From an uncultured Lachnospiraceae bacterium (GTDB lineage Bacteria; Bacillota; Clostridia; Lachnospirales; Lachnospiraceae): DNA of 58,227 nt. The stretch's first letter is position 1. Each line of letters opens with the position of its first letter. A program made the position numbers and the translations under genes. Shown here one piece after another: positions 22,147-44,079 of this stretch. The DNA lies in NCBI GenBank assembly GCA_947565305.1, contig CANOFO010000005.1:1-58227 (forward strand), given 5' to 3'. The notes under the pieces were generated by a model. That model was not told where the DNA came from and did no database searches. It saw nothing but the letters and a program-made list of their open reading frames with translations.

Positions 22147-25100
22147 ATGAGAGAAAAGAATCATAAGCAGATTGGAAAGGAATCCATGCCAAGGAGGCAT
22201 CCTGTCAGGCAGCAGCTGCTGGCCGTGCTTCTTGGCTTGTGTCTGGCAGTTGTGTCAATCCCTGTCTCACAAATCGGCTATTCCGTTCAGGCAGCGGAGC
22301 TACAGGGATATTCCAAAGATATTGATTTATCCAGTGATAAGGATGGGCAGGAGCTGTTGAAACATAATCGGAATCTGGGGAAGGTCCCTGTATCGTCAGA
22401 TGATGGAAAAGTGGACAAAAACGGCGGGGAGCAGGAAAGCAGCGGCAAGAAGAAAGATATCCGGAAAATGAAGAGGCTGGAGGAAGAAACGGAAGCAGTG
22501 TTCACAGAAAGTGCAGAACTGTCTGAAACGCCGAAAGAGCCTGGCTGTGGGATTGTCAGCGAGGATGTTACATGGGAGATTCCCGGAACTTTGACGGATG
22601 GAGAACTGATTGTCATGCCGGGGGTTACCTTGACAATAACACAGCCCGTGGTAATTAGTGGGAGTGTCACCATTAAAGGCGGCGGAACGATAGCCAGAGG
22701 AGGAACAGGTGCAGGATTTATAATGAATGGCGGCGGCAATCTGGTGTTGGAAGACATTACGCTGGATGGATGTTCATCGTTATTTCCGACAGCAACGGTA
22801 TCTATGTTAACGGCAAAAGGCACAAACACAATAAGGCTGGAGAGTGGCTGCACAATCAGGAACTGCAGTTCAACAAGCAATGGGGGTGCAATTTGCTTTC
22901 CCTATAGCAATGATAGAAATTCAGATATTATAATTAATGGTGCGTTAATTGAAAACTGTCTGACTACAGGCGTAGGAGGTGCAATTTGTGCTGATGACAA
23001 GACAACAAAAAGTGGCACCATTACCTTGAATAATGCAACGATAAGGAATTGTACGGCAGGAACAAATGGTGGAGGAATCTATGCGCCGGATATAGATGTG
23101 ACTATCAATGGGGGGCATTATGAGAACAATAAGACGACGACGCTTTCTGGTGGCTTTGTAGGCGGCGGTTTTATTTTTATCTGCAGGTCGACCCTGATAA
23201 TAAATGATGGTATTTTTACCGGGAATTCGTGTGTGAACAAAGGGGGCTGCATTTCCCACTGCGGTCATCTGAATACGAGGACTTACATATATGGAGGAAC
23301 TTTTTCCGGCAATACCTGCAGCAGTAAGCAGTATGCAGGCAGCGGTGCGCTTTATAACTCTACGGTAGATGTAGCCGACACGTCAGTGACGCTTTCCGGC
23401 GATGTAAAGTTTGTCGGCAATAGCGATGATTCGGGTATGGATGGCATTTATCTGGATGCAAAAGGCGATACGATGCGCAAGATTCAGATTAGCGACACCC
23501 TTACCTATCCGGTAAAGGTTTTTCTAAATCCGATAGAGGGGTATGTGATTGCACAGGGAGTAAATGATTATCAGTTGCTGAGAAAGAGAGACATGAAAAA
23601 AATAACCTTTGTGGATGTCACGGGTTCCGGCAATACCTGGTATGCAGTGCTGGACGAGGATGAGAACCGGGTATATATGTCAGAGACGAATCCTGGGTAT
23701 GCCTATTTTGTCTACTATATAAAAAATGGCGCACAAGGGACGGCAGTGGCGGATGACAATGAGTATGAGCTGGGAGATACAGTAACCGTAAAATCCGCTG
23801 AGGGGCTGTCTTATGAAGGACGCCGGTTTGTTGGCTGGAACACCGAAGAAGACGGCAGCGGGGTTATGTATCAGGAAAATGATACGTTTGATTTGGAAGG
23901 TGACACAAACCTGTATGCCATTTTTGAGGAGGGCATTACGGCAGACTTCTATTCCGGCGGCGCTGGGAATAAGAAGACTGTTGCCGCAGATATGGATTTG
24001 GAGCAGAACACCGGCATCGTTACAACGCCGGAACTTCAACCGATGGAGGGATTTACTGCCGTAGGCTGGGCTGAAAGCCATGAGCAGTTTGACGAAAGTA
24101 TTGCCGAAGGCACAGAGCTTATGTTGACAGAGAAAGCCACTTATTACGGCGTGTATGAGAAAGAGGTTACGCTGTCCTATCATGCTGACGGCGGGGAAAC
24201 CTGCCCGGAAAGCGAGACCCAAACTTGCCGTGCTAACGTGGGTGAGGAGATAGGTTATGACATCCCTTCGTTTACGGTGGCAGAGGAAGCTACCAAGCTA
24301 GGCGGGGCGTTCCTCGGCTGGAATACGGAAGCGGATGGGAGCGGCACGATGTACCAGGAAGGCGATGTGCTGGAGATTGGCCAGGACGAGGAACTGTATG
24401 CCATCTTTGAGGAGCGGCCGTTCTTTTACGCGGATTTCTATTCCGGCAGCTTGGGAAATAAGGAACGCGAGGTAGTGCTGTTGGAGGAAGGGGCAGTGAG
24501 CGGTACAATTACAGCGCCGGAACTTAAGCCAATGGCAGGTTTTGAAGCATTGGGCTGGAGCGGGAGCCATGAGGGAAACCGTGTGGAGGTGATGGCTGGT
24601 GATGAGATTACGCTGACTGCAAATGCCGCTTACTATGGCGTATACGAAAAAGAAGTTACGTTGTCTTACGATGCCAACGAAGGGGATGTCTGCCCGGAAA
24701 GCGAGATGGGGACCTGTTATGCTAACGTAGGCGTGGAAGATGTGTCCAATGATTTGCCCATATTTACGGCGGCAGAGCCGCAGCCGCGGGAAGGTTACGT
24801 TTTTGCCGGCTGGAACACCAGATGGGACGGCAAGGGAGAGCCTTTCCTGGCTGGGGAGAGGCTGGAACTGGACCATGATACGGTACTCTATGCCATGTGG
24901 ATTGCCGGGGACTATACGCCGTACCGGGTGGAGCACTACCGGCAGGACCTTGAGGGGGACAGTTACTCCCGGGTGGACGCGGACACGGAATACATAGCTG
25001 GCAGGACCGGCGATACCGTGGAGGCGGAGGCGAACCCCTATGCCGGGTTCAGCAGAAGCCAGGACCCAGAGCTTGGGAGGGCAGAAGGGACCGTGGAGGC

Positions 25101-32024: not shown

Positions 32025-32879
32025 ATGGCGACATTGGGAATCCCACAGAATACCATTGCGGTATTGCAGAAATACAATTTTAATTTCCAGAAAAAATATG
32101 GGCAGAATTTCCTTATTGATACCAGAGTGTTGGAGAAGATTATAAGTGCGGCGGATATCACCAAAGAGGATTTTGTGCTGGAAATTGGTCCGGGAATCGG
32201 CACGATGACGCAGTATCTCTGCGAACATGCGGGCAGGGTTGCAGCAGTGGAGATTGACAGGAATCTGATTCCCATTCTGGAAGATACGCTCAGCGCATAT
32301 GAAAATGTGGAAATTATTCAGCAGGATATCCTTAAAATGGATATCAATCAATTTGTACAGGAAAGGAATCAGGGAAAGCTCATCAAGGTGGTGGCAAACC
32401 TGCCCTATTATATTACCACCCCTATCATTATGGGATTATTTGAAAGCCATGTGCCGATAGACAGCATTACGATTATGGTGCAGAAAGAAGTGGCAGAGCG
32501 GATGCAGGTAGGTCCGGGAACCAAAGAATATGGAGCGTTGTCCCTTGCTGTCCAGTATTATGCAAAACCGGAAATTGTCGCCAATGTGCCGCCCAACTGC
32601 TTTATGCCCCGCCCGAAGGTGGGAAGCGCTGTGATACGGCTGAACAGGCACAGGGAAGCGCCAGTGCAGGTAAAAGATGAGAGACAGATGTTTGCTCTTA
32701 TCCGTGCCTCCTTTAACCAGCGCAGGAAAACGCTGGTTAATGGACTGAATAATGCGCCGGATATCGCGCACAGTAAAGAAGCAATCGTACTGGCTTTGGA
32801 GAAAATGGGGCTGCCTGCCAATGTGCGGGGGGAAACCTTGTCACTGGCGCAGTTTGCCAAGCTGAGTGATTTGTTATAG
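32025..32879 (+). CDS. rsmA: 16S rRNA A1518/A1519 dimethyltransferase
   Basis: RsmA (KsgA) dimethylates two adjacent adenines near the 3' end of 16S rRNA. The 284-residue protein has KKYGQNFLID at the start, the SAM loop LEIGPGIGTMT, the acidic VEIDRNL, and the catalytic NLPYY motif. The C-terminal helical domain contains FNQRRKTLVNGL. The ATG follows AAGGAGG, 20 bases after tatD. Its 3' end overlaps the convergent gene at 32874 by 6 bases. Confidence 0.97.
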   Translation: MATLGIPQNTIAVLQKYNFNFQKKYGQNFLIDTRVLEKIISAADITKEDFVLEIGPGIGTMTQYLCEHAGRVAAVEIDRNLIPILEDTLSAYENVEIIQQDILKMDINQFVQERNQGKLIKVVANLPYYITTPIIMGLFESHVPIDSITIMVQKEVAERMQVGPGTKEYGALSLAVQYYAKPEIVANVPPNCFMPRPKVGSAVIRLNRHREAPVQVKDERQMFALIRASFNQRRKTLVNGLNNAPDIAHSKEAIVLALEKMGLPANVRGETLSLAQFAKLSDLL

Positions 32880-33659
32880 GAAAAATTCTACCATATCTTT
32901 CTGGAAACGTTTCGGCAGGTTTTGATTCTGCAGTTTGGGATTTTTACGTGCTTCAATGGCGATGCTGTCAAAGAAGGCGCACCACAGCCTACGGTACTCC
33001 AATTCCTGTGGAGAGAAACGCTGCAGCAATTCCTGATTCAGTTCTCTGGTATCCGTGATAAAGAATCCTTTTCCTTTGGGATGCAGTACGGCAAGATTCC
33101 GTGTCGCATCGTATATCATAAAATTTTCTTCTGGCAGACGGTCAGCAAAATGTTCTCCCAGAACTGGCAGAACATCGTTCTTGGGGTGAATCTGCGCGAA
33201 GAGAATGCCATTCTCCAATTCCTGAAAACGTAGAAAGCCTAATAGGTGGTGGGCTTCATTGAAAGTACAGCGGGAGAGCTGGAACGTGCGGTACACGTAG
33301 GGCTCCCCCAGATAATTCAGTACTTTACCAGCATCTGGCAGGGACAGGGCAAGGACAATCGTCTTGTAAATCGCTTCTGCTTTGTCTATGGATTGTTTAT
33401 AGGAAGCAGGTTCCAGTGCCAAAGCCGCCTGGCATAATTCCTGATAGGTCTCCTCGCCCATGCGGCTGTGCAGGGTGCGTGCAACTTTGGCGCTCTTCTC
33501 ATAGTCCGTATGGACGTTGATATACGCATCAAACAGTGAGTAATTGTCTGGTGTGTGGGTGGTGAGGGCAATGTTGGCGTGTCCATGACGGCTCGCCCAG
33601 GCATCGTAGACGCCGGTGAAAATGCCGTCTATACTGTCTTCGCAGATAAAAATGTACAT
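32874..33659 (-). CDS. TIGR03915-like putative DNA metabolism protein
   Basis: The 261-residue protein begins MYIFICEDSIDGIFTGVYDAW and contains KVARTLHSRMGEE and the block HHLLGFLRFQELENGILFAQIHPKNDVLPVLGEHFADRLP. It ends near RLWCAFFDSIAIEARKNPKLQNQNLPKRFQKDM. This matches the family I know as TIGR03915, found beside a radical SAM protein and sometimes fused to a uracil-DNA glycosylase-like domain. No glycosylase domain is present here. It is the second gene of a minus-strand operon whose promoter carries two LexA-type boxes, so a role in DNA damage response is likely. Biochemical function is unknown. An AAGGAGG box lies in the 21-bp repeat just upstream. Confidence 0.8.
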   Translation of the reverse strand: MYIFICEDSIDGIFTGVYDAWASRHGHANIALTTHTPDNYSLFDAYINVHTDYEKSAKVARTLHSRMGEETYQELCQAALALEPASYKQSIDKAEAIYKTIVLALSLPDAGKVLNYLGEPYVYRTFQLSRCTFNEAHHLLGFLRFQELENGILFAQIHPKNDVLPVLGEHFADRLPEENFMIYDATRNLAVLHPKGKGFFITDTRELNQELLQRFSPQELEYRRLWCAFFDSIAIEARKNPKLQNQNLPKRFQKDMVEFFL

Positions 33660-33664
33660 TGTGC

Positions 33665-33826
33665 GTCCCTCCTTAGGTCAAACTACGTTTTTGGCTGTTC
33701 CCAGAGACCTAAGGCATCCTCCCGGCTGTGATTTACTTTGTTGGTACCGATAAGGGACCTAAGGACTCTTCCCCAGCTACGCTGGGTCCCCCCTCAGGTC
33801 ATATGGTCCCTCCTTAGGTCAAACTA
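33665..33826. repeat. 21-bp direct repeat 141 bp apart, with internal inverted copies
   Basis: Positions 33665-33685 and 33806-33826 are identical 21-mers. On the minus strand the second copy holds the radical SAM stop codon plus AAGGAGG, and the first copy supplies AAGGAGG to the next gene. Between them, GACCTAAGG occurs in opposite orientation at 33706-33714 and 33756-33764, and a one-mismatch form at 33792-33800. The segment codes for nothing visible. It looks like an insertion of about 120 bases flanked by a duplicated target, or a small structured element. Confidence 0.8.
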
Positions 33827-35127
33827 AAATCAGATTGCAGCTCCTTGTCGAAAAAGCTGATTTGCTGATACCCGCCCTCGCGGATGTCTCTGGGAATCTG
33901 GGTTTTATCTCGCATAAGGTTTTCGCAGATATAATTTTCATCCAGCTTGGTGCGGTACATCATCTTCCCGGAGCAGGTAATAAAATACAGGGCGCGTTTG
34001 AGCACAACGCCAATTTTTTTCAAATCATCAAAGTTCAGAGAATTCTTCCTGCGCGCTTTTACAATGCGTTCTGCAGATTTGTAGCCGATTCCGGGAACGC
34101 GCAGTAATGTTTTGTAGCTGGCGCGGTTGATTTCCACTGGAAAAAATTCTAAATGCCGCAGTGCCCAGTCGCACTTGGGATCCAGAAATATATTAAAGTC
34201 CGGACGGTCCTCCGACAGCAGTTCTGCGACCTTAAAATGATAATAGCGCAGCAGCCAGTCTGCCTGATAAAGGCGGTGTTCCCGCAGCAAAGGCGGTCCT
34301 CCGGGCAGAGCGGGAAGCATGGAATTGCCGTTGACATTGACAAAAGCGGAATAGAACACCCGTTTCAGTCCGAATTTCTGGTAAAGCCCTTCCGCAACGC
34401 TCATGACCTGGAAATCGTTCTCCGGGGTGGCGCCGATAATCATCTGTGTGGACTGCCCGGCTGGGACGAACCGGGGAGCCTTGCGGTACACGGTAAGTTC
34501 CTGTTTGTTGTCAGTAATACGGTTCTGAATCTGACGCATAGGCTTTAAGATGGTATTGCGGGACTTACAAGGGGCAAGTTTCTGCAGACTGTCCGCAGTA
34601 GGAAGCTCCAGGTTGATGCTCATGCGGTCAGCCAGAAAACCGGTGCGTTCCACCAGCTCCGGATCAGCGCCGGGAATTGCCTTGACATGGATATAACCGT
34701 TAAAGTGATGTACCGTGCGCAGTTTGAGCAATGTCTGGTAAATCAGGTCCATCGTATAGTTGGGGCTGACTAAGATGCCTGAACTGAGGAAAAGTCCTTC
34801 AATGTAATTGCGGCGGTAGAATTCCAGCGTGATGGTGCAGATTTCCTCCGGGGTGAAGGAAGCGCGTCTAGTGTCGGAATCCCGGTTGTTCAGGCAATAA
34901 GCACAGTTGAAAATGCATTCATTGGTAAAAAGAATCTTCAGCAGCGAAATGCATCTGCCATCTGCAGAGAAAGTATGGCAGATTCCGGGGGCAACCGAAT
35001 TGCCCATACCCCTGCCATTCCCCTTGCGGTCTACGCCGCTGGAGGTGCAGGCGACGTCATATTTTGCGGCATCGGATAAAATCGTCAGTTTTTCAAATAA
35101 ATCCATATCCATCGGTATCATATTCAT
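33814..35127 (-). CDS. Radical SAM protein, putative DNA modification/repair (TIGR03916-like)
   Basis: This 437-residue protein has the radical SAM cluster motif C71-x3-C75-x2-C78 in ECIFNCAYCLN, and a SAM barrel with SSGILVSPNYT. Near the C terminus a helix-hairpin-helix (VPGIGYKSAERIVKARR) suggests DNA binding. It matches the family I recall as TIGR03916, linked to a uracil-DNA glycosylase-like partner system. The start at 35127 (MNMIPMDMDLFEKL) follows a GAGGAC box. A longer reading to 35274 would run through the promoter and LexA boxes and is rejected. It is the first gene of an apparent SOS operon with the gene at 32874. Confidence 0.88.
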   Translation of the reverse strand: MNMIPMDMDLFEKLTILSDAAKYDVACTSSGVDRKGNGRGMGNSVAPGICHTFSADGRCISLLKILFTNECIFNCAYCLNNRDSDTRRASFTPEEICTITLEFYRRNYIEGLFLSSGILVSPNYTMDLIYQTLLKLRTVHHFNGYIHVKAIPGADPELVERTGFLADRMSINLELPTADSLQKLAPCKSRNTILKPMRQIQNRITDNKQELTVYRKAPRFVPAGQSTQMIIGATPENDFQVMSVAEGLYQKFGLKRVFYSAFVNVNGNSMLPALPGGPPLLREHRLYQADWLLRYYHFKVAELLSEDRPDFNIFLDPKCDWALRHLEFFPVEINRASYKTLLRVPGIGYKSAERIVKARRKNSLNFDDLKKIGVVLKRALYFITCSGKMMYRTKLDENYICENLMRDKTQIPRDIREGGYQQISFFDKELQSDFSLT

Positions 35128-35156
35128 GGTATTAAAGTCCTCGAATTTAATGTGAA

Positions 35157-35216
35157 GAACAAATGTTCTAAAATCATCATAGCACGGATTTCTGCAAAAT
35201 GCAAGAACTTTTGTTC
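35157..35216 (-). promoter_or_regulatory. Promoter flanked by two LexA/DinR boxes
   Basis: On the minus strand TTGCAT (35204-35199), 17-bp spacer, TATGAT (35181-35176). A box GAAC-N4-GTTC at 35205-35216 abuts the -35 upstream. A second GAAC-N4-GTTC at 35157-35168 lies over the start region, 7 bp past the -10. Both fit the Gram-positive LexA (DinR) consensus CGAACRNRYGTTYG in its core. This predicts SOS induction of the radical SAM operon. Confidence 0.82.
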
Positions 35217-38252: not shown

Positions 38253-38355
38253 AATAGGCAGATAAGAAAGGAGGGAGAGAAGGTACAAAGCTGTACCGCA
38301 TAGGAGAGTAAATGGCAATTTTGATGTGCCGCAGAAAAAGAAAGGAATGGATAGT

Positions 38356-41300
38356 ATGGGAACAAGAAAAAGTTTTAGAAGAATCCTGTCGCTCATCTTA
38401 AGCCTGGCAATGGCGGTTACTTTGCTGCCGATGCAGATGGCGTATGCAGAGAGCGGCAGTGTTCCGAATGGGGAGGCAAGAATTACCACGCCTGACGATG
38501 GCATGGGCTTGCCCGCAGAATTGGCACATTTCTCATTTGATTCACAAGATGAGATAATGGGCAAAGTAGTTGGCGCTGCAGAGAAAGCTAAGATTGTAAC
38601 CTCGGATGACGGTCATGATGCAACGCCTTATCTGAAGTTAACAGGAGGTTCATTTATCCGCGCGCTGGATGGAAATGTCCTTGCAGGAAAGAAAGAACTG
38701 ACAATTTCTTATTGGAGCAAGTCGGAAGGTGCGCCAGGCTGGGCATTTTATGCTGCAAAGGACAATCTGGCAGCGCCCACTGACAATTACATTGGGATTC
38801 TGGATCAAACGACCAGCGTGGCAGTGGAACGCTATTTGAACGGCAGGACAGATGGCTGCAGCGGAAATGCATCTTCCCTTACGAGCGCATGGCGCCATGT
38901 CACCGTAGTATTTGGGGAGAATTCCACAGAGACATATGTGAACGGCGAGCGTAAAATTGATATGACGTTGAATCAGGCGCCAATGTCGGAGATATTGACG
39001 GATAAGAGCGTCCTTAAAATCGGAGCGGCAAACTGGCAGCGTGGAGCGATTGAAAGCGAAGACAAAGATAAGGCAGGGGAAGTATTTAAAGGCGGCATCG
39101 ACAATTTTGTTGTCTATGATGGAGCCCTAGATGCGGCGCAGGTCAAATACCTATACGACGGCACAAAAAATGACCAGGGAACGGAGACTTCCCTGACCGG
39201 GCTAGAATTAAAGAGAACAGCGTGCAAAATGAATGTCGGCGGCACAATGGACATAGTTTCGCTGATTAAAGTTCCGGCGGGCGCAGGTTCCAGGGTTGAA
39301 ATCCAGTCTTCGGATTCTTCTGTAGCAGCAGAAACAGGCGCAGGGATTATCAAAGCGCTCAAAAAGGGAACATCTAACCTAACCATAAAATGGGGGTATG
39401 GAGCGAAAACCTATACACTGGGTACGGTGGCAGTGACGGTGACAGATTTTGCGCCCATAGGCAATTATACATTTGAGGGCGGTTTGGGCGATGCGACCGC
39501 CATACAGACGAAGCTGGCAAATTATAGCGGGCAGCCGGAGTTTGCAGAAGATGGGCACCGCGGCAAAGCACTGCAGCTGAAAGCCCCAACCTTTAAGGAA
39601 GTAACAGAAGGTGAAACAACCAAAACGGTGGTAGATGATGCGGGCTATGGAATAAAATTAAAAGAAGGAAAACTTGGCTCAGACTATACCGTTTCTTTGT
39701 GGGTAAACGCAGAAAAAGGCTTTTATTCACAGTCCCCCATCCTGTCATTGGGAATTGGAAATGACACAGCACAAAACTGGGTAAGCATTTCAGGAACCTG
39801 GAAGGGCGGCGCGGATGAGACTGGTACGGCAGCGAGGGTTTGGTGTGTTAAGAAAGCTGGTGAAGCAGCGGTAGAATTCAATGGCAAGTATAGCAATACT
39901 GCTTTCAATGCCCCCAATGGCCAATGGACTATGCTCACAATCTCCCAGAGCGGCAATGATTTGAAATTCTATGTAAATGGAAAGGAAAACGGCGGCACAA
40001 AAGCGGCAGAGGAGATTTTAAATCAGGACGATGCGCTTATTACCATTGGTATGAATAATTGGGATACCAGTTTTAAGGGCATGATTGATGACGTCAATGT
40101 CTATGACACCGCTTTGGATGCCACGCAGGTAAGGTCGCTATACCTGAGCCAGCTTTCTGCAGAGCAGACAGCAGACTGGCTGGAAATTAAAGGTGAGAAT
40201 AAAAGTATAAATTGCCTTACTGAAGATTTGAGCCTTCCTGCAAGCAAAGAAGGGATTGCCATTACCTGGACTGCGAAAGAAAATGGTCAGGATTCCGCTG
40301 CAGTAACGAAAGAAGGAAAGGTTACGGCAGGAGGAGGTAACAAGGTAACGCTCACCGCAGCCTGCAGCGATGCGCAGACAGGGCTTAGCTGGACTGTCGA
40401 TATCCCGGTCAAAGTGGCGCGCAAGGTTATCATACGCTGTCTGGACCAGGAGACGGCAGCGGGCAATAACGAAGCTGACCTGATTCAGAAAACGGAACGC
40501 ATGGAAGAAGAAGGCTCCAAGTATGTACATGTCCCGGAAGACATTGTAATCTCGAAAGATGGAGAGGCTTACAAATATGAAGCTGAGGGTAATAAAAACA
40601 CGGAAAATCTGACAATTACGGTCGGGGCCGATGCAGATGGCACGGTAACGGATACCGTAAACGTTGCCTATAAGAAGGTAGAGATTAAGAGCATTGTTTC
40701 ACCGGACGATGCATACATTATTGAGGGCAATGTCCCGCATCTTCCGTCTAAACTGGATGCCACGGCAGACCCGGGAGATGGAACGGCAATCAAGATTAAA
40801 GTTCCTGTTACCTGGACCGATGATTATGCAAACCTGAAAGCAAGGAAAGAGCCATATGTCATAAAAGGAACCGTGGGAAGCAGGAATGTCAGCGTAAAAT
40901 TGACAGTATTTGCATGTGATGCCGAGATGGATGAAGTGGAGGCAACCTATACCAATAATGCCAATACCAGATTTTTATCGTTGAATGGAAAATATAAAGG
41001 TGTTATTGAGACAGAGTTTGACCTTGTAAATATAAGTAAATCCACACAGCAGGGCGCATTCTTCCTGCTGGATAATGATGCTCCGGGCGCATGGTGGAAC
41101 AATTCTGCAGCGCTTGAGTTCGATGCGGACGGAAAAGACGCCAAAGGATACTACCGTGCAATAGGAGGAAACGGAAAGGGCGGCAATTTTGCTGACAGCG
41201 GCGGCACATATTATCCAGAAAATAAAGAGGCGGCAAACGCCATAGCATATGACGGAACTGGCACCTATCATGTGCGTATGCAGATAGACACCACGGATGT

Positions 41301-44079
41301 AGACAGCACAGTGGAAGAGGGCGCGTCTGCGGTAAAGAAGAATGCCACATTCCGTGTCTGGATGACCGATAAGGACGGAAAGACTACGGAACTGACAAAG
41401 AGTGCGGCAGCAACTTCACGCTATATCAAGAGCGGTATTATCAGCAAGTATTTTGTAGGAACCTATAAGGCGGCAGAAAATGGGGACTTCAAGGTAACGA
41501 ACCATAAGCTGAGCTGGCAGTCCGGCTATGTAGCAAAGAATATTGAGACTTATGTGGATAACGTGAAGGTAGCGGAACTGAGCCAAAACTCCAAACTTCT
41601 TCCATACAGCCTGATGACGGAAGAGGAACAGGCAGCTTATGCTTATAAGCCAGCGGCAAATATTATGCAGGACGAGGAGAAATGTGTCCTGCAGACAAAG
41701 GATTCAGGATGGTTCGATGAGGACGGCAGTAAGATTGCAGACGATGCAGTTGCAGAGAAAGCAGTTGCAGGAGCAGTGCTTACCTACAAAGCATATTACA
41801 AAAAAGGTGTGGCAGATTTTGCCGGTTTGAATGAGAAAATCGAAAATGCACAGAAGGTATACAATGAGCAGTCGATGATTTATACGGCGGCTTCGCTCAA
41901 ATATCTGGCGGATGCAATTGAAGCCGCTGAGACGGTAGCAGCTACCGAGGGAAGTGCAAATGAAGCGTCCGTAGAGGCGGTAGAAAATGCGATTACAGCT
42001 TTGCAGGCAGCATTGTCTAAAGAAGACGTAACCCTGGTACCGAAGGATTACGAAGCTATGAACGAATTATTGGCAGCATTCTATCCGCTGAATGAGGAGA
42101 CAGAAGCAAAGGATACGGCTGGGGAGCACGATGGGACGGTAAATGGAAATATCAAATTCACCAATGACGGAGGTGCGAAATTTCCGGGAAGCAGCAGTGC
42201 ATTGACCAATTATATCAGCCTTCCGAACACGATGAAGGTTACGGACAAGATGACATTCTCCTTCTGGGTATACTGCAACAACAATGCTGACACAGAGACA
42301 AATGCCACACATAAGATGCACAATACGTTCTGTCTTGGCTCAGGAAAGAAGATTGGCAACAATGCCGGAACAGAAAAGGCACATCATTTTTCCATCTATG
42401 CAGGGCAGGACGGCGAAAACTTGGCGGTCAATGGTGGGCCTGACGGCTGGGGAACTGGTCTGGACGGCGTTTCCGTCAGCGGTTATGAGAAGCAGAAATG
42501 GAGTCTTGTCACATGCGTTGTGGACGGTAAAAACGTGACTGTTTACCAGGATGGCGTAAAGAAAGATTACGGCACCATCGGAGTTACCCTTACGGAAGCA
42601 TGGAATGCAAGCCCTGAGGAACGTTATATCCTCTTAGGAAATAACTGCTATGCATACAATGGTGACTGGGATTACAAAGGAAATGTTAAGAACCTGCGCG
42701 TTTACAATGCACCGCTTGTGGCTCAGCAGGTAAAAGACATTTTTGACAATGAGGTGCAGGAACTTCTGGAGGCTTCGGCAGAGAATCTGGCAAGCACTCT
42801 TGAAGCACAGCCAGGCACAGGCGATAATGCCGGCAAATATATGCTGGAAATCATGGAAGATAAGGTGAAGCTGCCGAAAAAAGGAAACCAGGGAGAGGCA
42901 ATTTCCTGGATAGCATATGAAGCCGATGGCACGACAGAGAGTACGGCAGTCATCAATCCTGACACAGGTGCGGTAACCGTTCCGTCGGCCGGAGCCGATG
43001 GAGTGACAGTAATCCTCAAAGCGACTATCACCATCAGCGGAGTGGCAAAAGAAGTTGTCATCGTATGCGATGTCAAGAACCCTATTAACAAAGGGTCGAC
43101 AGAAGCCCTCAAAAATGAGGCAAAAGCTGCCATGGAGGGCAAGAACAAAGCAGATTACGATGAAGCGGTATGGAATGAGCTGGCGGCAGCAATCCAGGCA
43201 TATGAGAACTTGCCAGAAAATGCAACGCCGGAGCAGATTGCAGCGGCATATAACAGGCTGAAGGCAGCGTTGGAAGCATTTAAGCCGAAGACGACCGTGG
43301 CAGTTACCGGTGTTACGCTGAACAGCAGCAGCCTTGCACTGACGGTTGGCGGCAGCGCAACTCTGACAGCGGCAGTCAATCCCAAAGATGCTGACCAGGC
43401 AGTGACATGGGCAACCAGCGATGCTGCAGTTGCAACAGTTACAGGCGGCAGAGTTACAGCAGTAAAAGCCGGAACAGCAGTGATAACGGCGACCAGTGTG
43501 GCAGACAAGACGAAGAAAGCCAGCTGTACGGTAACTGTCCAGGCAAAAGCAGTGACGGGTTCTGTGGCGGTTAAGAGCGTGAAGCTGAGTGCTAAGAAGC
43601 TGACGCTGGGCGTAAAAGAAAAGTATACATTGAAGGCAACGGTGAATCCAAGCAATGCGAGCAACAAGAAAGTCACCTGGAAGTCTGACAAGCCAAAGAT
43701 TGTCGCTGTCAAGAACGGCAAGCTTACGGCAAAGAAAACAGGTAAGGCAAAGATTACCGTCACCAGTTCAGCAGACACGAAAAAGAAAGCAACCATTACG
43801 GTAACTGTGAAAAAAGCGCCGGACAAGAAGGCGAAAGTATCGCTGAATAAGAAGAGCGTGAAACTGAAAGTGAAGAAGACGTTCCAGATTAAGGCGAAGG
43901 TATCTTCTAAGTACGGCAGCGCAACCTTCAAATACACCATCGACAAGAAAGGCAAGAAAGCCGTAAAGGTGGATAAGAACGGCAAGGTTACCGCCAAGAA
44001 GAAAGGCAATGCAACGATTACCGTGAAGCCTTATAACGGCAAAGGAAAGGCTGCCAAGCTGAAAGTGACCGTAAAATAG
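38356..44079 (+). CDS. Giant surface protein: three LamG modules, FIVAR and Big2 repeats
   Basis: The protein has about 1907 residues. A signal peptide (AMAVTLLPMQMAYA) comes first. LamG/ConA-like modules lie at about 45-265 and 360-600, each ending in a FxGxIDxxxVYDxALDAxQV helix. Ig-like domains and a further beta-rich region follow (about 600-1150), then FIVAR-like helices (about 1150-1225). The third LamG lies at about 1240-1465, a second FIVAR-like stretch near 1575-1645, and three Big2 domains at about 1650-1907. The last two are extremely Lys-rich. There is no LPxTG or TM tail; the basic Big2 tail may hold it to the wall by charge. No catalytic glycosidase motif was recognised. Likely glycan-binding. 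Start 38356 is 9 bases after AAAGGA; ATG 38347 is an alternative. Confidence 0.85.
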   Translation: MGTRKSFRRILSLILSLAMAVTLLPMQMAYAESGSVPNGEARITTPDDGMGLPAELAHFSFDSQDEIMGKVVGAAEKAKIVTSDDGHDATPYLKLTGGSFIRALDGNVLAGKKELTISYWSKSEGAPGWAFYAAKDNLAAPTDNYIGILDQTTSVAVERYLNGRTDGCSGNASSLTSAWRHVTVVFGENSTETYVNGERKIDMTLNQAPMSEILTDKSVLKIGAANWQRGAIESEDKDKAGEVFKGGIDNFVVYDGALDAAQVKYLYDGTKNDQGTETSLTGLELKRTACKMNVGGTMDIVSLIKVPAGAGSRVEIQSSDSSVAAETGAGIIKALKKGTSNLTIKWGYGAKTYTLGTVAVTVTDFAPIGNYTFEGGLGDATAIQTKLANYSGQPEFAEDGHRGKALQLKAPTFKEVTEGETTKTVVDDAGYGIKLKEGKLGSDYTVSLWVNAEKGFYSQSPILSLGIGNDTAQNWVSISGTWKGGADETGTAARVWCVKKAGEAAVEFNGKYSNTAFNAPNGQWTMLTISQSGNDLKFYVNGKENGGTKAAEEILNQDDALITIGMNNWDTSFKGMIDDVNVYDTALDATQVRSLYLSQLSAEQTADWLEIKGENKSINCLTEDLSLPASKEGIAITWTAKENGQDSAAVTKEGKVTAGGGNKVTLTAACSDAQTGLSWTVDIPVKVARKVIIRCLDQETAAGNNEADLIQKTERMEEEGSKYVHVPEDIVISKDGEAYKYEAEGNKNTENLTITVGADADGTVTDTVNVAYKKVEIKSIVSPDDAYIIEGNVPHLPSKLDATADPGDGTAIKIKVPVTWTDDYANLKARKEPYVIKGTVGSRNVSVKLTVFACDAEMDEVEATYTNNANTRFLSLNGKYKGVIETEFDLVNISKSTQQGAFFLLDNDAPGAWWNNSAALEFDADGKDAKGYYRAIGGNGKGGNFADSGGTYYPENKEAANAIAYDGTGTYHVRMQIDTTDVDSTVEEGASAVKKNATFRVWMTDKDGKTTELTKSAAATSRYIKSGIISKYFVGTYKAAENGDFKVTNHKLSWQSGYVAKNIETYVDNVKVAELSQNSKLLPYSLMTEEEQAAYAYKPAANIMQDEEKCVLQTKDSGWFDEDGSKIADDAVAEKAVAGAVLTYKAYYKKGVADFAGLNEKIENAQKVYNEQSMIYTAASLKYLADAIEAAETVAATEGSANEASVEAVENAITALQAALSKEDVTLVPKDYEAMNELLAAFYPLNEETEAKDTAGEHDGTVNGNIKFTNDGGAKFPGSSSALTNYISLPNTMKVTDKMTFSFWVYCNNNADTETNATHKMHNTFCLGSGKKIGNNAGTEKAHHFSIYAGQDGENLAVNGGPDGWGTGLDGVSVSGYEKQKWSLVTCVVDGKNVTVYQDGVKKDYGTIGVTLTEAWNASPEERYILLGNNCYAYNGDWDYKGNVKNLRVYNAPLVAQQVKDIFDNEVQELLEASAENLASTLEAQPGTGDNAGKYMLEIMEDKVKLPKKGNQGEAISWIAYEADGTTESTAVINPDTGAVTVPSAGADGVTVILKATITISGVAKEVVIVCDVKNPINKGSTEALKNEAKAAMEGKNKADYDEAVWNELAAAIQAYENLPENATPEQIAAAYNRLKAALEAFKPKTTVAVTGVTLNSSSLALTVGGSATLTAAVNPKDADQAVTWATSDAAVATVTGGRVTAVKAGTAVITATSVADKTKKASCTVTVQAKAVTGSVAVKSVKLSAKKLTLGVKEKYTLKATVNPSNASNKKVTWKSDKPKIVAVKNGKLTAKKTGKAKITVTSSADTKKKATITVTVKKAPDKKAKVSLNKKSVKLKVKKTFQIKAKVSSKYGSATFKYTIDKKGKKAVKVDKNGKVTAKKKGNATITVKPYNGKGKAAKLKVTVK

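Follow-up and report, generated by a model that had tools for sequence, protein, structure and literature searches.

Control by the SOS repressor LexA has been proposed before for relatives of the operon examined here, in which a radical S-adenosylmethionine (SAM) gene of family TIGR03916 is followed by a partner gene of family TIGR03915 (DUF4130). The operon lies in a 58,227-nt stretch of DNA, hereafter the window, from an uncultured Lachnospiraceae bacterium (contig CANOFO010000005.1, assembly GCA_947565305.1). In Clostridium acetobutylicum, LexA control of the pair CAC3343-CAC3344 was proposed in 2013, with expression data cited, in the sections of that work used here (PMC3828012). In the Bacteroidetes, motif evidence places a COG1573-COG4277 operon under SOS control; the passages concerned also cite Verrucomicrobia and Alphaproteobacteria and read the operon as a putative uracil-DNA glycosylase (UDG)-based base excision repair system (PMC8565304). 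Radical SAM proteins also appear in other SOS regulons, one in the Gram-positive core (PMC7739468) and another, vnz_31145, as a LexA target in Streptomyces venezuelae (PMC9380542), the family being unstated in the cited portions of both papers. DUF4130 has been called, in an excerpt, a predicted mutagenesis-related enzyme that is connected with SplB-like radical SAM proteins and with UDGs and might modify thymines (PMC3765255). Regulation of the pair has already been proposed and so is not new. We take COG4277 to correspond to TIGR03916, a family named "putative DNA modification/repair". A first-pass annotation of the window, made from the letters alone, held that these families have no known chemistry, and searches of open-licence PMC papers agree with this, having turned up predictions but no reaction or mutant phenotype for the family.

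Here, we examine the regulation, conservation and protein anatomy of the window's pair, which we consider probably to be a LexA-repressed two-gene SOS operon whose products process damaged bases by radical-SAM chemistry. Comparison of the upstream regions strongly supports SOS control, and its strongest sign is a change of operator type between bacterial classes. The features of the locus are collected in Table 1.

Table 1. Features of the radical SAM/DUF4130 operon in the window.
Feature	Position	Strand	Basis or remark
Distal LexA-type operator GAACAAAAGTTC, directly next to the -35 element	35205..35216	-	Exact dyad
-35 element TTGCAT, weak consensus match	35199..35204	-	Read from sequence; layout conserved in genus
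-10 element TATGAT, 17-nt spacer to -35	35176..35181	-	Read from sequence, and conservation
Proximal LexA-type operator GAACATTTGTTC, over expected transcription start	35157..35168	-	Exact dyad and conservation
Radical SAM protein, TIGR03916, 437 aa	33814..35127	-	Profile search
Copies of dispersed GACCTAAGGAGGGAC repeat, between both genes	33665..33826	-	Not thought part of the function
Partner, TIGR03915/DUF4130, 261 aa, without UDG domain	32874..33659	-	Profile search

The two GAAC-N4-GTTC dyads on which the first-pass annotation had built its SOS reading are present and exact; in plus-strand letters they are GAACAAATGTTC at 35157-35168 and GAACTTTTGTTC at 35205-35216. Read along the minus strand, the distal box leads straight into TTGCAT; a 17-nt spacer separates this from TATGAT, and 7 nt further on comes the proximal box, followed by a Shine-Dalgarno-like GAGGA and the ATG at 35127. 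The dyads do bracket the promoter, one touching the -35 element and the other beginning 7 nt past the -10. The window holds three exact dyads against 0.63 expected, a number reached in 0 of 100 shuffles; the third (22860-22871) sits within an open reading frame (ORF). A sigma-70 consensus scan did not report the TTGCAT/TATGAT promoter, because TTGCAT matches TTGACA at three of six places and the scan needs four, and the promoter call therefore rests on conservation. An argument from dyad enrichment across the genome was dropped, with 26 exact sites against 69 for a reversed control pattern; this count, together with the many sites that fall within long ORFs, speaks against a naive reading of the motif. 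A lone dyad means little, and therefore position and conservation must decide.

We searched up to 300 bp upstream of the radical SAM gene for a relaxed box, RAAC-N4-GTTY, using 23 scrambled half-sites as controls, in three sets of loci. The genus set holds 29 genomes, the window's own included, and all 29 encode TIGR03916. Relaxed boxes occur at 29/29 of these loci and exact boxes at 24/29, with scrambled means of 0.9 and 0.1, respectively (relaxed maximum 7/29, for GCAA). The named set started from 80 named loci (the best 80 of 299), and 23 sharing a 50-mer with genus loci were dropped; the 57 retained, mostly labelled Lachnospiraceae and mutually non-independent, have 53 relaxed and 39 exact boxes, with control means of 1.3 and 0.5 (relaxed maximum 6/57, again GCAA). 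For the phylum set, 60 of the 64 other genomes over the TIGR03916 cut-off were used (G069, G131, G173 and G310 were omitted), giving a relaxed box at 42 loci and an exact one at 17, against means of 1.1 and 0.2 (relaxed maximum 3/60, GCTT). Over all three sets the relaxed box is found at 124 of 146 loci, with one locus that has an N run upstream (L164) scored as a miss and a second, sub-cut-off TIGR03916 match in G024 (L055) left out of the counts.

The gap between the half-sites was scanned as well. Exact boxes with N4 number 24, 39 and 17 in the genus, named and phylum sets, and no other gap gives more than 1; for relaxed boxes N4 gives 29, 53 and 42, with runners-up of 5/29, 13/57 (N8) and 5/60. 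We therefore reject chance dyads as an explanation, since scrambled half-sites score low, though not nil, and the gap scans peak at N4. The first-pass annotation had named a lack of LexA boxes upstream of orthologues as one finding that would undo its reading; the search did not refute it, the boxes found there standing far above the scrambled controls. The promoter travels with them. A TTGC-N16-18-T[AG][TG]NNT promoter with a box no more than 14 nt downstream is present at 28/29 genus loci, and the proximal box lies exactly 7 nt past the -10 element in 24 of the 29. At 22/29 genus loci a second relaxed box is found farther upstream, 48 or 56-58 bp from the proximal one, distances which indicate that the distal operator has shifted by some nine bases while the proximal one stayed fixed.

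Boxes of the same kind are found at genes of the SOS response itself. The lexA gene was found in 24 of the 29 genus genomes (own counted) and in 20 of the 21 better assemblies, and 9 of the 10 lexA loci retrieved from the genus have a relaxed box upstream, in many cases accompanied by another box or near-box at a distance of 30-32 bp. Across the phylum, all of the 30 best-scoring lexA loci have a relaxed box, and 25 of those 30 genomes also carry one before the radical SAM gene; these lexA counts stand without a scrambled control. In the window's own genome, the RecA gene (475 bits) has GAACTTATGTTC immediately upstream, and the Lachnospira eligens orthologue of the radical SAM gene has a GAACAAATGTTT box.

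Outside the phylum, the operator changes with the host class. The Betaproteobacterial orthologue (Caballeronia) has a perfect CTGT-N8-ACAG upstream, which we take to be the Escherichia coli-type box. Five of five Alphaproteobacterial orthologues, all on plasmids (Phaeobacter, Paracoccus, Azospirillum, Agrobacterium and Sulfitobacter), have a perfect GAAC-N7-GAAC; other gaps gave none, and a single one of 22 control half-sites (CAAG) gave 1/5. Read on the other strand, GAAC-N7-GAAC is the GTTC-N7-GTTC repeat that the cited part of PMC8565304 reports for Alphaproteobacteria. Three kinds of LexA-type box at one operon across classes make a role in the response to damage hard to doubt.

Several observations, in addition to the missing scrambled control for lexA, weigh against LexA control of the pair. 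The assembly that holds the window (82.95% complete, 202 contigs) yielded no lexA. At 4 of the 30 phylum lexA loci the box is solely a doubly relaxed AAACAAAAGTTT, and the radical SAM genes of those genomes have no box. The relaxed box is absent from 18/60 phylum loci and 4/57 named loci; within 260 bp upstream it is likewise missing from L087, L108, L131 and L133 of the 80 named loci, while some box-less loci show near-boxes at the -10 by eye. Even when one mismatch is tolerated, the Bacteroides, Acinetobacter and Fusobacterium orthologues show none of the box types scanned, GGA-N5-TCC not being among them, and the Gemmatirosa upstream region gives just one-mismatch hits. The LexA motif of the Bacteroidetes is GGA-N5-TCC, and to our knowledge Acinetobacter and Fusobacterium are without LexA. 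The family is also patchy: 65 of 299 phylum genomes, own included, exceed the TIGR03916 cut-off, and none of the three additional genera that this draw contains from the window's family does so. On balance, the SOS-type operon of the first-pass annotation stands as far as boxes kept upstream of orthologues can carry it, and from these we infer LexA binding and induction of the operon by damage.

The family names given by the first-pass annotation were correct, both scores lying well above the curated cut-offs. The radical SAM protein matches TIGR03916 (rSAM_link_UDG) at 681.2 bits (cut-off 343.5) over profile positions 2-414 of 415, and the partner matches TIGR03915 at 220.9 bits (cut-off 112.25) and PF13566 (DUF4130) at 162.8 bits (cut-off 27). 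The helix-hairpin-helix ascribed to the radical SAM protein is real as well; it is PF12836 (34.6 bits, cut-off 27), spanning C-terminal residues 331-370. Among solved structures, the radical SAM protein gave just weak short matches, to a ComEA helix-hairpin-helix and to the radical SAM protein HydE. A reading of the pair as a defence system was rejected, with 0 PADLOC matches at E <= 0.01. The two genes are closely linked: the partner lies downstream on the same strand in 80/80 named loci, and in the phylum set it was found by tblastn at 55/60 (in L187 at 691 nt), by profile at 2 more, and in part at a contig end in 1. Neither tblastn nor profile search found it at the remaining 2/60 (L147 and L157), both of which are also without a box.

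We aligned 129 radical SAM proteins, mostly from the phylum together with named records of other phyla. One locus, on a Roseburia-labelled metagenome-assembled genome contig (L125), was omitted by length; its radical SAM frame stops early, and the gene is broken or misread. The CxxxCxxC cysteines C71, C75 and C78 are present in 129/129 sequences, and three additional cysteines ahead of them, C27, C50 and C59, in 128/129. The exception is a Gemmatirosa relative (L214, NZ_CP007129.1) that scores 302 bits against the cut-off of 343.5, has no partner that we could find in its 6.2-kb locus, and may do something else. The position of C27, C50 and C59 near the radical SAM motif would suggest a second iron-sulfur (Fe-S) cluster with an open site, or these residues may instead be zinc ligands. 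In the helix-hairpin-helix, P345, G346 and G348 are conserved in at least 98.5% of sequences. The partner alignment is invariant at R144, R238 and P249 (125/125) and nearly so at R174 and E258 (124/125), and no cysteine or histidine in it reaches 85%. With this pattern of conservation, the partner would seem better suited to nucleic-acid contact than to the role of a metal enzyme.

These features suggest how the operon may work. In an undamaged cell, LexA would sit on one or two operators flanking and overlapping the promoter and keep it shut; upon damage, RecA filaments would prompt LexA to cleave itself, and both proteins would be made. The C-terminal helix-hairpin-helix could then bring the radical SAM protein to DNA, where its CxxxCxxC cluster would generate a 5'-deoxyadenosyl radical with which to reverse or trim a damaged pyrimidine base. 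A second Fe-S cluster, likely held by C27, C50 and C59, would bind the lesion or activate it, and the DUF4130 partner might act as a DNA- or lesion-handling subunit that presents it. In Alpha- and Betaproteobacteria the partner is joined to the uracil-DNA binder UdgX, a fusion that points to lesions derived from uracil or thymine. It is from such indications that we infer substrate and reaction, and there are reasons for caution: the lesion-handling role of DUF4130 is a guess, as the partner has no resemblance to any solved structure (two receptor chains at E about 0.75 were taken as noise) and profile search found none, and SOS control alone is no proof of a DNA substrate. A more specific version, which we put forward tentatively and consider possible but doubtful, is a UDG-independent, SOS-induced system for direct base reversal, in which the free iron site of the second cluster (C27, C50, C59) would bind the lesion, by analogy with MoaA, whose extra cluster binds its nucleotide. 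If true, it would give radical SAM DNA repair a second form beside spore photoproduct lyase, a radical SAM enzyme that directly reverses a DNA lesion; with the single model tried, spore photoproduct lyase was over cut-off in 0/29 genus genomes.

As an alternative to processing the lesion independently, the pair might be an accessory of uracil base excision repair that needs a UDG, either a fused UdgX or one acting in trans, for example Ung, and has the abasic or cross-linked product as its substrate. All six of the Proteobacterial operons opened (five Alpha-, one Betaproteobacterial) have a partner annotated as UdgX family, three of three such partners scanned show a TIGR03915-TIGR03914 fusion by profile, and the cited text of PMC8565304 describes a putative UDG-based repair system. 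The window's genome, for its part, encodes standard Ung and a deoxyinosine glycosylase. Against this, the 261-aa partner has no fused UDG domain (TIGR03914), TIGR03915 being its sole NCBIfam match, and the partner is likewise of the short form in Bacteroides and in an Acinetobacter-type record. In the genus, UdgX is over cut-off in 0/29 genomes, own included (a weaker match to the UdgX model in 15/29 is probably another UDG type), whereas the radical SAM gene is present in 29/29; the pair is therefore kept where UdgX was not found. The suggestion of the first-pass annotation that the pair may act alone thus holds as to the missing fusion and the absence of UdgX from the genus, and is weakened by Ung and the deoxyinosine glycosylase, which could help in trans. 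We regard an accessory role as unlikely, though worth keeping in mind.

We give less credence to the remaining explanations. That the enzyme acts in the SOS response on RNA or the translation machinery rather than on DNA would fit the many radical SAM enzymes that modify RNA, and the convergent neighbour past the partner is KsgA-like by eye. That gene is on the opposite strand and outside the operon, however, and the helix-hairpin-helix, the uracil-DNA binder to which the partner is fused in other bacteria, and LexA-type boxes in several classes all make an RNA substrate improbable. The protein could also be spore photoproduct lyase under another name, as both proteins are of the radical SAM type with links to DNA repair and DUF4130 has been tied, in the excerpt cited above, to SplB-like radical SAM photolyases (PMC3765255). 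Yet no such model is among the protein's three NCBIfam matches (E <= 0.001), and TIGR04070 misses this gene and finds only a weak match elsewhere in the genome (contig C49), which renders the identity highly improbable. Finally, the absence of lexA from the assembly and the lack of genome-wide dyad enrichment would fit the dyads being operators of another repressor or the product of chance, an idea that we find barely credible given such boxes at lexA and recA, an operator type that varies between classes, and low scrambled controls. The preferred reading thus remains a LexA-repressed operon for the processing of damaged bases.

Copies of a dispersed repeat, GACCTAAGGAGGGAC and its relatives, lie in the spacer that separates the two genes. 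The 15-mer occurs 20 times in the genome against 0 for its reversed control, and the repeat may be a small mobile or repetitive extragenic palindromic (REP)-like element that landed in the operon. A structured RNA in this spacer was rejected (z -0.92; 35/200 shuffles equally good). We also rejected the idea that the pair is mobile cargo. Of 10 matching phage records, 2 were opened; one is an unannotated gut scaffold, and the other (L211, CAKLQH020000003.1), filed as "Acinetobacter phage MD-2021a", has the pair beside glyQ/glyS and looks like bacterial chromosome. Matches also occur in 158 plasmid records (10 opened), 142 of which are called non-mobilizable. Elsewhere in the genome, two genes encode proteins that start with MEEIL and are sigma-factor-like by eye (L196, G000:C72:9000-12500; L197, G000:C152:4000-5734); each gene is preceded by a pair of exact LexA-type boxes spaced 32-33 bp from one another. 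The L197 gene runs into a GmrSD_N-like region (23.4 bits, below the Pfam cut-off), and L196 has no Pfam match; it is possible that both are unrecognised SOS-controlled genes. Further along the window, a 1917-aa ORF (38326-44079), in which laminin-G-like and bacterial-Ig-like repeats can be made out by eye, probably encodes a secreted carbohydrate-binding protein.

To the regulation already proposed, this work adds breadth, a fixed promoter-operator layout, a genus in which UdgX was not found, and the prediction of a second Fe-S site, as well as a Betaproteobacterial example, for which the literature was not searched for earlier mention. The cysteine pattern and the UdgX fusion direct enzymology towards a second Fe-S cluster and towards substrates derived from uracil or thymine, turning an annotation guess into an assay plan for gut anaerobes and easily grown aerobes alike.

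The known systems resemble the window's operon to differing degrees. Spore photoproduct lyase is a model for the kind of chemistry proposed and belongs to a different family by profile. The six Alpha- and Betaproteobacterial operons opened share both families, the gene order and a local LexA-type box with the window; their partner carries a UdgX domain, whereas that of the window does not. The radical SAM proteins of the Gram-positive core regulon and of S. venezuelae are also placed in SOS regulons, with kinship to TIGR03916 not stated in the portions cited (PMC7739468, PMC9380542). The Bacteroidetes COG1573-COG4277 operon is similar in its SOS control by motif evidence and, in the passages cited, differs in its other LexA motifs and in the presence of a UDG (PMC8565304). 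CAC3343-CAC3344, like the window's pair, has a LexA site upstream and is a proposed member of the LexA regulon; as far as the cited sections go, that work concerned one species, by footprinting and butanol/butyrate arrays, and mentions neither a two-operator layout nor a second Fe-S site (PMC3828012).

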